The notes beneath the pieces are model-generated. The model was not told where the DNA came from. It did no database searches and saw nothing but the letters and a program-made list of their open reading frames with translations. From positions 1-64,000 of the forward strand of contig NZ_BLAD01000049.1 of NCBI RefSeq assembly GCF_009687845.1: DNA of 64,000 nucleotides, written 5' to 3'. Made by a program: the position numbers and the translations under genes. Source of the stretch: Acrocarpospora corrugata (GTDB taxonomy: Bacteria > Actinomycetota > Actinomycetes > Streptosporangiales > Streptosporangiaceae). This document shows, in pieces, positions 55,089 through 57,711 of this stretch (the stretch's first letter is position 1; every line of letters starts with the position of its first letter).

Positions 55089-55459
55089 CTGTCCTGCTGG
55101 TCGCCCTGGGTGCGGCCATTGGCGCGCCGCTGCGTTATCTCACGGACCGGTTTATCCAGGCCCGGCATGATTCGGTTTTTCCGTGGGGAACGATGGCGGT
55201 CAACGTGGCCGGGTCGTTCGTGCTGGGGCTGCTGGTCGGCCTGCCGGTCCCGGAGTCGGTGGCCGTGTTCGCCGGGACCGGCTTCTGCGGGGCGCTCACC
55301 ACGTACTCGACCTTCAGCTACGAGACGGTCCGGCTGACACAGGAGGGATCGCGGTTCTACGCCGTCGCGAACGTCACCGCCAGCGTGACGGCCGGGCTGG
55401 GGGCCGCCACGCTGGGGTTGGTGATCGGTCAGGCGATCGGCTCGCTGGTGAAGGTATAA
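55085..55459 (+). CDS. crcB: CrcB/Fluc fluoride channel, subunit 2
   Basis: A 124-aa Fluc partner with [37 protein letters not shown] and [19 protein letters not shown]. The two genes have opposite expected topology and together form the fluoride-exporting channel. The last 31 nt overlap the end of the convergent pseudoprotease gene. Confidence 0.9.
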
Positions 55460-57711
55460 CCACTCTCGCCGGGTTTGCCGAAGGCGACCTCGACCGTGTA
55501 CCAGCCGTCACCGCCGGTCAACAGCACATCGAGCGCGCCGTCGTTGTTGAAGTCGCCAGTGAGTGGCTTGACGTTCACGTCCTGGGCCAGGACAGGGATC
55601 TCCTTCAGCCGGTGGTCGGAGACCTCCTGGAAGGAGCCGTCCCCGTTGGACAAAGCCACCGGAACCGAAGCCAGGTCGGTGCCGAGCACCGCCAGGTCGT
55701 CCACCCTGTCACCGTCGAAATCACCCGCGACGAGGTGGGCGTTGTCCTCGGCCGCGTGTCCGGCGAAGTCGTGGCCGGGCGGCCAGTAGTGGAAGTCCCA
55801 GCCGCCCTGGGCGTTGTTGAAGGCGATCGCGACGATGTCCCAGTCCTCGCCGCCGGCCAGGGCGAGGTCCATGTCGCCGTCGCCGTTGAAGTCACCGGAG
55901 ACCACCTGGGCGTCCGGATCCGACGCCAACTCCGGCCAGCTCACGTCGGCCTCCTTGGTGGCGACCCGGAACGCCTGGGGGACGGCCTCGGCCTGCACCA
56001 GGGTGTCGCCCGGCACGCCCGGCGGGTTGGGACCGACCAGGAGCAGGTCGCCGATGCCGTTGCGGCCGAGGTCGGTGCCGACCAGCTTCGTGTTGGGCTG
56101 GTCCGGAGCCCACACCTGCGACTCGCCGGTGAGCGTGAAGGTGCTCATGGTGAAGGTGCCGTCGCCGTTGGAGAGCGCCACCAGCGGCCGGGTGGCGTTG
56201 GGCCCGCCGGTCACCACCACGTCGGCGTACCCGTCCATGTTGAAGTCCCCGGCCGCGAACTTGGCGTTCGGGTCGGCCGACCGCTTGATCCAGGCCGGGT
56301 TGACGGGCAGGTTGGTGACCTTGAACGAGCCGTCCCCGTTGGAGAAGGCCACCGGCAGCGTCACCCAGTGGTCCGGCCCGGTCAGCGCCATGTCCTGGTC
56401 GCCGTCCTTGTCGAAGTCGCCGGACAGCAGCGTCGCGTCCGGGTCCTGGACCCAGAAGTTCCACTGGCTGCTGAACTGGGTCAGCGAGTACAGCAGCAGG
56501 TTGGGCGAGCCCGAGCCGATGTCGTCCAGGACGCCGGGCGTCGCGTCGGCGATGATCCGGTTCTTGATCGTCTGCTGCTGGGCGGCCGGGTCGCGCTCCA
56601 GATGCAGCGCCGCCACCCCGGCCACCAGCGCGGCCCCGTAGTCGGCCCGGTCATGGGAGACGAACTCGTCGTCGGCGTCGCTGGACGCCGAGGTCTGGTT
56701 CGCGCCCGGGGCGAACAGATCCACGCACCCGCCCTTGGCGGACCTGCTCGCCCGGTGGTCGTCGCGGGTCGACCCGCCGACGTTGATCAGCGTGCCCAGG
56801 CTGCCCGGGTAGACGTCGCAGGCGTTGAGGTCGAAGTCGGCGTCCCCCGCCGTGGTGACCCACACCACGCCGCGGAGCATGGAGGTGGTCAGCGCGGCGT
56901 TGAGCGGGCCGTGCCCGTCCGAGTTCGCGTGGCCGATCGTCATGACGGCGACCGAGGGCCCGCCCTTCGCCAGGTGGTCCTCGGTGATGAACTCGATCCC
57001 GGCCAGGAAGCTGATGTCGCTCGGCATGCTGTCGCACGGCCTGATCCGGACCGGCACGAGCGAGACGTCCTTGGCCGCGCCCCGGGTCAGGCCGCCCACC
57101 AGCGCCGCCGCGAAGGTGCCGTTCCTGGTGCAGTCGTCGGTGCCGCGACCGTCCGCGACGGTGCTGAAGCCCTCCTTGACCCGGTCCCCGAACTCCAGGT
57201 GGGTGCGCCGGATGCCCGACCCGACGACGTAGGCGCTGACCCCCGCCCCGGTCGCCTGGAAGCGGTACTTGCCGTTCAGCGGCAGATGCCGCTGGTCGAT
57301 CCGGTCGGCCGACCAGTCGGGCGCGTCCGACGACGTCGGCGGCCCCAGCGACATCGGCTCGCCGAGGTCCTTCCAGACATGGTCGGCGTAGACGCCCGCC
57401 ACGTCAGGATCCTTCCGTACGGCCAGCAGCTGCCCGGCCGTGAGCTTGGCGGCGTACGCGTTGATCGTGACGCTGAACTCCCGGTCCACCCGGATGCCCA
57501 TCGACCTGGCCCGGGCGGCGGCCCCCGACTTGCCCTTCAACACCACCAGATACTGGCCGGGCACCACGCTCTCCCCGCGTTCGGCGAGGTTGAGCGGGGC
57601 CAGCGCCGCCGCCTCCGCGCCGCCCGCGGTGATCGCGGTGCCCGCGAGTAGTACGGCCATCGCGACCTTGATCAGCACGGCCCTGCCGAGCTTCCTGCGA
57701 GCGCTGTCCAC
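55429..57711 (-). CDS. Secreted subtilisin-fold pseudoprotease with FG-GAP repeats
   Basis: A 760-aa secreted protein. After a signal peptide (about 13-36) there is an I9-like propeptide (QYLVVLKGK to about 112), then a peptidase S8 fold (about 155-375) with NINVGGSTRDDHR-type and DLFAPGANQTSAS signatures. All catalytic positions are lost: Asp is G164 (AYVVGSGIR), His is N197 (CTRNGTF), oxyanion Asn is D290 (TTAGD) and the Ser position is D357. The rest (about 425-745) is six FG-GAP/VCBS repeats such as SGDFDKDGDQDMAL and AGDFNMDGYADVVV, likely a calcium-binding propeller. Start GTG 57711 has AGGAGG 8 nt upstream. Confidence 0.85.
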   Translation of the reverse strand: MDSARRKLGRAVLIKVAMAVLLAGTAITAGGAEAAALAPLNLAERGESVVPGQYLVVLKGKSGAAARARSMGIRVDREFSVTINAYAAKLTAGQLLAVRKDPDVAGVYADHVWKDLGEPMSLGPPTSSDAPDWSADRIDQRHLPLNGKYRFQATGAGVSAYVVGSGIRRTHLEFGDRVKEGFSTVADGRGTDDCTRNGTFAAALVGGLTRGAAKDVSLVPVRIRPCDSMPSDISFLAGIEFITEDHLAKGGPSVAVMTIGHANSDGHGPLNAALTTSMLRGVVWVTTAGDADFDLNACDVYPGSLGTLINVGGSTRDDHRASRSAKGGCVDLFAPGANQTSASSDADDEFVSHDRADYGAALVAGVAALHLERDPAAQQQTIKNRIIADATPGVLDDIGSGSPNLLLYSLTQFSSQWNFWVQDPDATLLSGDFDKDGDQDMALTGPDHWVTLPVAFSNGDGSFKVTNLPVNPAWIKRSADPNAKFAAGDFNMDGYADVVVTGGPNATRPLVALSNGDGTFTMSTFTLTGESQVWAPDQPNTKLVGTDLGRNGIGDLLLVGPNPPGVPGDTLVQAEAVPQAFRVATKEADVSWPELASDPDAQVVSGDFNGDGDMDLALAGGEDWDIVAIAFNNAQGGWDFHYWPPGHDFAGHAAEDNAHLVAGDFDGDRVDDLAVLGTDLASVPVALSNGDGSFQEVSDHRLKEIPVLAQDVNVKPLTGDFNNDGALDVLLTGGDGWYTVEVAFGKPGESGYTFTSEPIA

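Follow-up and report, generated by a model that had tools for sequence, protein, structure and literature searches.

A predicted subtilisin-fold pseudoprotease fused to FG-GAP repeats in Acrocarpospora corrugata

Introduction

What might a bacterium gain from a subtilase-like protein in which every position of the catalytic machinery has been replaced? This question is raised by a gene in a window of 64,000 nucleotides from Acrocarpospora corrugata (contig NZ_BLAD01000049.1, positions 1 to 64,000). An original prediction, made from the sequence before any database search, described the product as a secreted subtilisin-fold pseudoprotease followed by FG-GAP repeats and argued for a selected, non-catalytic function. 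Here, we ask whether the gene is real, whether its catalytic residues are truly gone, how it relates to other subtilases of peptidase family S8, and which role would best explain it. All coordinates refer to the window unless a locus or contig label precedes them.

Gene structure and domain organization

The gene was found where it had been predicted, at 55429..57711, and lies on the minus strand; defined by the ORF list, Pfam and codon statistics, it runs for 760 codons from a GTG at 57711 to a TGA at 55429 and encodes an I9/pseudo-S8/FG-GAP protein of 760 aa. The description of an intact, long frame with a good ribosome site also holds: the start codon is directly preceded on the minus strand by CAGGAGGTGGAGCAC (57712..57726), the 760 codons contain no stop or frameshift, and GC content by codon position is 0.675/0.485/0.954. 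The antisense frame on the plus strand is likewise open, for 822 codons, so openness alone is no proof of a gene. Codon adaptation, computed against six neighboring genes (themselves 0.559-0.850), is 0.786 for the S8 half and 0.764 for the FG-GAP half versus 0.377 for the antisense frame, which looks like a shadow of the gene opposite it. The pseudoprotease gene has the codon structure of a working gene.

Four domain profiles exceed their Pfam cut-offs, in agreement with the original prediction that I9-like and S8 scaffold signatures are kept. Following an N-terminus that, judged by eye, resembles a Sec signal peptide (about residues 1-36; 57604..57711, minus strand), the protein contains an Inhibitor_I9 prodomain (PF05922, E 1.8e-5, 25.7 bits, cut-off 21.2), with its core at residues 70-114 (57370..57504, minus strand); residues 37-112 match the prodomain chain 8c4x_B as well. 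In the consensus, the prodomain usually ends in ...A..TQ..PSWGLDRIDQR, whereas the pseudoprotease has a longer linker without TQ. An aqualysin-like S8 domain comes next (Peptidase_S8, PF00082, E 1.1e-11, 45.1 bits, cut-off 21.8), assigned to residues 126-410 (56482..57336, minus strand) from Pfam, the solved-chain alignment, the structural model and Foldseek. The remainder, residues 413-760 (55432..56475, minus strand), is an FG-GAP region (FG-GAP, PF01839, E 2.4e-12; FG-GAP_3, PF13517, E 5.5e-21). The six calcium-type repeats that had been proposed correspond to six loops starting at residues 432, 489, 547, 607, 664 and 720, four of which are clean DxDxDG-type loops and two of which (547 and 664) are imperfect.

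Active site and predicted fold

The active-site positions were placed by pairwise alignment to aqualysin I (4dzt, the best solved chain for the S8 part, E 7.1e-56) and to a keratinase (5wsl), and again by three multiple alignments with 62, 69 and 88 other rows. All five alignments agree on the four substitutions that had been predicted. In place of the Asp-His-Ser triad and the oxyanion Asn of S8 enzymes, the protein carries Gly164 (GGG, 57220..57222) at the Asp position, Asn197 (AAC, 57121..57123) at the His position, Asp357 (GAC, 56641..56643) at the Ser position and Asp290 (GAC, 56842..56844) at the oxyanion Asn position, all on the minus strand. The GTSMAAPH motif around the Ser is gone. 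An intact triad at other positions, which would have contradicted the original prediction, was sought in the same pairwise and multiple alignments, and no alternative Ser-His-Asp set was found elsewhere in the protein. From its residues, the protein is predicted to be without catalytic activity.

The surrounding scaffold is better preserved: of 72 S8 columns that are near-invariant (conservation of 90% or more across 76 active S8 rows), 47 are kept and 25 lost. All four disulfide cysteines (194, 226, 298 and 329) are retained, and we take them to be paired as in aqualysin. Losses are not significantly concentrated around the active site: within six residues of the four sites, 11 near-invariant columns are lost and 11 kept, compared with 14 lost and 36 kept elsewhere (p 0.11). 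When two substrate-binding stretches of the S8 domain are added to the site regions, the losses amount to 19 of 35 columns inside and 6 of 37 outside (p 0.0011), a value to be read with the fact that the stretches were picked after the list had been seen.

As the original prediction had proposed, the structure was modeled and superposed on known enzymes. An AlphaFold model of residues 37-412, built from 64 sequences, reached a mean pLDDT of 91.9 and a pTM of 0.92, with a confidence that leans on the active enzymes making up most of the alignment. Its input comprised the pseudoprotease and 63 of 71 non-redundant S8 rows, 8 shorter, longer or similar ones having been omitted by hand; four rows with split matches had been skipped before the 71-row set was made. 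The model superposes on active subtilases. In a Foldseek search of the PDB, the top hit was keratinase 5wsl (TM 0.95 by target length, rmsd 1.2); aqualysin I came third, and PCSK9 appeared from rank 9. Profile, model and fold search thus all place the domain in the S8 fold, as far as a predicted structure can. Two other constructions were dropped, namely, a single-sequence model of the whole protein (pLDDT 31.8) and a joint alignment of S8 and FG-GAP rows, in which most FG-GAP proteins became aligned with the S8 region.

Relatives of the two halves

The homologues of the S8 domain in the genomes searched are all distant. With the whole protein as query, matches occurred in 83 of 297 family genomes at E <=1e-40, in 34 of 345 order genomes and 13 of 396 genomes drawn from the phylum at E <=1e-52 (best 2 or 3 candidates per genome in each case), and in all five genus genomes at E <=1e-10; these counts include the genome of A. 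corrugata itself, and the genome sets overlap. The best S8 match is only 44% identical (L108, phylum set). No orthologue was found among the 345 order genomes or the 396 phylum genomes, with the best 2 or 3 candidates per genome scored against the whole-protein query, nor in the four congeneric genomes.

Apart from the query itself, no match covers both the S8 domain and the entire FG-GAP region, and the longest matches end at query residues 445-525. In the five family genomes that were read past residue 440, the matching proteins have intact His, Asn and Ser motifs and a different tail, which by eye appears to be another beta-rich domain and contains no DxDxDG-type loop. Across 88 other aligned S8 rows, a few of which are overlapping fetches of one gene (L118, L120), 76 have an intact set of sites (DHNS), 10 are degenerate and 2 incomplete. 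A DxDxDG-type loop occurs in none of the 88; for some of these, the fetched sequence does not cover the whole frame.

On its own, the FG-GAP half matched sequences in 3 of 200 family genomes at E 1e-20 and, among 346 phylum genomes at E 1e-12, in its own genome only. Its nearest kin, at 44-50% identity, are free-standing FG-GAP proteins encoded in its own genome (contig C41; no signal peptide at the listed start) and in the congener G106 (signal peptide present by eye). A short two-repeat stretch in the same genome (L079:8912-9250; G000:C36:63911-64249) is 64-67% identical to the FG-GAP repeats of the pseudoprotease; it may belong to a broken gene, since a signal-like start at L079:9362 lies in another frame than the repeats. 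In a plasmid collection, the FG-GAP half found matches of about 36% identity in the FG-GAP tails of trypsin-like proteases from Streptomyces. Protein searches returned 4 phage and 48 plasmid records, none of which covers 80% of the query. A peptide-pattern search of genome contigs recovered one Bacteroidetes FG-GAP locus (31%), the same search of viral contigs gave no relative, and a defence-system library gave no match.

The pseudoprotease is thus an orphan among the genomes sampled. Its S8 domain sits at the tip of a long branch (1.2-1.9 changes per column) that takes no well-supported place in the trees. Normal codon use and an unbroken frame at the tip of such a branch speak against long decay. 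Its coding structure and the retention of its fold suggest, short of proof, that the gene is kept by selection.

A junction with gene turnover

Comparison with congeneric genomes defines a stretch that G027 lacks, 55460..57804, between crcB2 (ending at 55459) and a small minus-strand gene that by eye is of S4 type (ending at 57805, also by eye). The last 31 bases of the pseudoprotease gene overlap the end of crcB2. G027 has a clean empty site: its flanks form one uninterrupted alignment in which the two stop codons overlap, without a gene between them. At the same junction, roughly 360 bp are present in G079 and include an ORF for a VbhA antitoxin of 59 aa (Pfam E 4.8e-10; L139:3621-3800). In G127, some 17 kb separate the flanks, one block is inverted, and the S4-like gene has a Fic fragment (E 3e-7; L141:1361-1582) as its neighbor. 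In G106, only crcB was found of the locus. The five fetched locus stretches, which do not extend to the middle of the 17 kb in G127, contain no match to the pseudoprotease; none of G027, G079 and G127 has the gene at this locus.

An empty or different junction in the congeners implies a lineage-specific gain of the gene or its loss from the congeners, and judging from these comparisons, the junction between crcB2 and the S4-like gene is a gene-turnover spot. A mobile-element origin of the insert was considered and set aside, as no clear flanking repeat was found; one 20-base pair of 80% identity (55361, 57853) brackets the insert and may be due to chance. Farther along the window, at 58625-61168, lies a gene for an LPG_synthase_C-type lysyltransferase with a lysyl-tRNA-synthetase-type membrane region, beside one for a PIG-L protein.

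Other degenerate subtilases in the family

Loss of S8 catalytic residues is not confined to this protein. Two genomes of another genus of the same family, here called g31 (G190 and G129), encode degenerate S8 proteins that are mostly clustered and mixed with active copies (L059, L144, L145, L146, L147). All 10 degenerate rows of the alignment come from these two genomes, and one further, truncated copy in G190 (L059:12810-13721) was left out as too short. In the order Asp, His, Asn, Ser, their site patterns are GQDA, GRDA, DRDA, GQDG, DHDA, DRDL and DQDG; the Asn is replaced by Asp and the Ser lost in 10 of 10, the His is lost in 9 and the Asp in 6. Both of the g31 pseudoproteases that were scanned have an I9 prodomain. 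NG86 estimates of dN/dS for g31 pairs above 62% identity, which are crude at such high GC3, do not separate the degenerate proteins (0.53-0.70, five pairs) from the active ones (0.33-0.64, eight pairs). The graded series in these gene clusters (DHDA, DRDA, DQDG, GQDA and others) would allow the order of loss to be read.

Whether the A. corrugata protein shares an ancestral loss with the g31 proteins, which form one clade in a 59-row tree, was examined by AU tests of a joint clade. With 89 rows and the site columns kept, the joint clade was not rejected (p 0.654), the constrained tree beating the free one (the unconstrained search had overlooked a better tree). With 59 rows and the columns within six residues of the sites removed, it was rejected (p 0.027), a change perhaps not from the columns alone, as both the reduction from 89 to 59 rows and a more careful search accompanied it. 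At 21 diagnostic columns away from the sites, the A. corrugata protein matches other active enzymes at 13 and the g31 clade at 2. It therefore probably stands outside the g31 clade and lost catalysis separately, and we read the likeness near the active site as convergence.

The genus of A. corrugata itself provides another example. In all five of its genomes, a degenerate mycosin-like S8 protein is encoded directly beside an active one (L082:7258-9255, G000:C64:98250-99032; L175-L178 in the other genomes). The two proteins of A. corrugata score 163 and 269, below the NCBIfam mycosin cut-off of 278.75. In the degenerate member, the Asp has become His (Ser in one copy), the His Tyr, the Asn Asp and the Ser Gly. 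The neighbors scanned in A. corrugata included one MoeZ-type protein and one teichoic-acid-type transferase, which does not establish a type VII locus. The degenerate copies are 75-95% identical, with NG86 dN/dS values of 0.21-0.43 (10 pairs), compared with 0.11-0.32 for the active copies (10 pairs); the degenerate protein thus looks to be under constraint.

Replacement of the oxyanion Asn by Asp consequently recurs in three lineages, namely, the FG-GAP fusion, the g31 clusters and the mycosin-like proteins. The change from AAC to GAC raises GC content, so mutation bias offers a simple explanation of this recurrence other than function. We advance only tentatively, as something that may well not hold, the idea that S8 subtilases of this family have repeatedly, in three lineages or more, become secreted binding proteins by one route (oxyanion Asn to Asp, loss of the Ser and often also Asp to Gly). 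If it holds, these bacteria would have in their pseudo-subtilases a standing class of extracellular binding proteins that has received little notice.

Possible functions

The reading that we favor, and consider probable, is that the protein is a secreted, non-catalytic pseudoprotease serving as a binding module with its prodomain attached, after the manner of CspC or PCSK9. The protein would be exported, and its I9 prodomain would aid folding of the S8 domain. As the catalytic residues are gone, the prodomain would remain uncut in cis, probably held over the former active-site cleft, and the S8 domain would act as a rigid, disulfide-bonded body for binding or capping. A partner or the cell surface would be held by the FG-GAP repeats, which probably form a calcium-loaded beta-propeller. 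What the data show directly are the architecture, the loss of all four residues, the fold signature and the healthy coding structure; secretion, the uncut prodomain and the binding role are inferences. The degenerate mycosin-like protein kept in all five genomes of the genus sets a precedent for such a role.

It is also possible that the gene was recently acquired and is functionless but not yet decayed, its product catalytically dead by drift. The long branch fits such a history, as does the setting, in which an orphan occupies a lineage-specific stretch at a junction that holds a VbhA ORF in G079 and a Fic fragment in G127. Against it stand the absence of any stop or frameshift, the full codon structure in both domains and the retention of cysteines and fold signature after so long a branch, and we regard a junk gene as rather unlikely. 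A decoy role seems less probable still. Here, the pseudo-S8 domain would mimic an active aqualysin-like protease and draw foreign propeptides or proteinaceous subtilisin inhibitors away from the active enzyme. In its favor, the genome encodes two SSI-type subtilisin inhibitors (PF00720; L149 and L150, on contigs C80 and C86 of G000), and it also encodes an active-looking aqualysin-like S8 protein to be spared (L006, DHNS). None of these genes shares a contig with the pseudoprotease gene, however; the altered columns include the substrate-binding stretches by which inhibitors take hold, and the cleft would already be filled by an uncut prodomain.

Two readings that retain chemistry fare worse. 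The oxyanion Asn and the catalytic Ser adjoin in subtilases, and with acidic residues in both places, Asp290 and Asp357 might form with Asn197 an acidic pocket for binding a cation or carrying out a different reaction. The recurrence of Asn to Asp in three lineages could be taken in its favor, although that change may be mutational, and the other two lineages replace the Ser by Ala, Gly or Leu, never by Asp. A sedolisin-type mechanism, moreover, requires a Ser. We consider such changed chemistry highly improbable. An active protease with displaced catalytic residues is the least credible option; no point was found in its favor, and the alignments place every motif and offer no substitute Ser, His and Asp.

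Comparison with known systems

In the Foldseek match, the S8 domain is 41% and 38% identical to the aqualysin I/proteinase K-like subtilases 4dzt and 5wsl, respectively, with which it shares the fold and aligned disulfide cysteines; it differs from them in lacking the four catalytic and oxyanion residues, in its altered substrate-binding stretches and in its added FG-GAP tail. PCSK9, in which a proteinase K-type S8 fold is used for binding with the prodomain attached, is among both the sequence and the fold matches. PCSK9, however, is a eukaryotic protein that undergoes a single self-cleavage and bears a Cys/His-rich tail, whereas the present protein is bacterial and carries FG-GAP repeats.

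To our knowledge, a role has been established for only a few pseudoproteases of bacteria, the best known among them being the Csp proteins. CspC and CspA of Clostridioides difficile are described as subtilisin-like pseudoproteases with a sensing or regulatory role, the prodomain of CspC staying uncut owing to its triad changes (PMC6636752). The dead S8 domain and, for CspC, the uncut prodomain resemble what is proposed here. They are nevertheless spore proteins with a jelly-roll insert and two changed triad residues, in contrast to the FG-GAP repeats and the replacement of three triad residues and the oxyanion Asn seen here, and an NCBIfam scan (E 0.1) matched no CspC or CspBA model; its sole entries, T7SS_mycosin and denti_PrtP, score far under their cut-offs. 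Streptomyces fusions such as WP_327301829.1 (on NZ_CP108578.1) likewise place a protease-fold domain before FG-GAP repeats, the latter about 36% identical to those of the pseudoprotease, but their protease domain has the S1 trypsin fold (Pfam E 2.1e-26) and not that of S8. A further parallel is offered by the inactive transglutaminase domains of polymorphic toxins, which precede repeats and are proposed to anchor by binding peptides (PMC3482391). These, too, are dead peptidase-type domains with a signal peptide before and a repeat array after; they have a papain-like fold, RHS repeats and a C-terminal toxin domain, none of which occurs here.

The original prediction that no described family has this combination stands for the architecture, as I9/pseudo-S8/FG-GAP was found neither in the relatives sampled nor in the open-licence literature searched, and the parts consulted of a 2008 survey, which lists one trypsin-FG-GAP architecture, contain no subtilisin-FG-GAP one (PMC2605481). 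It overstated the novelty of the kind: the same survey, as far as consulted, counts 8 of 227 prokaryotic subtilisin-like proteins as catalytically inactive homologues (PMC2605481), and both CspC and CspA and the trypsin-like FG-GAP fusions had been described. S8 pseudoproteases as a kind were thus already known, whereas the I9/pseudo-S8/FG-GAP architecture appears new. Should binding be the role of this protein and its counterparts, they would offer tractable proteins for learning how a protease scaffold becomes a binding module.
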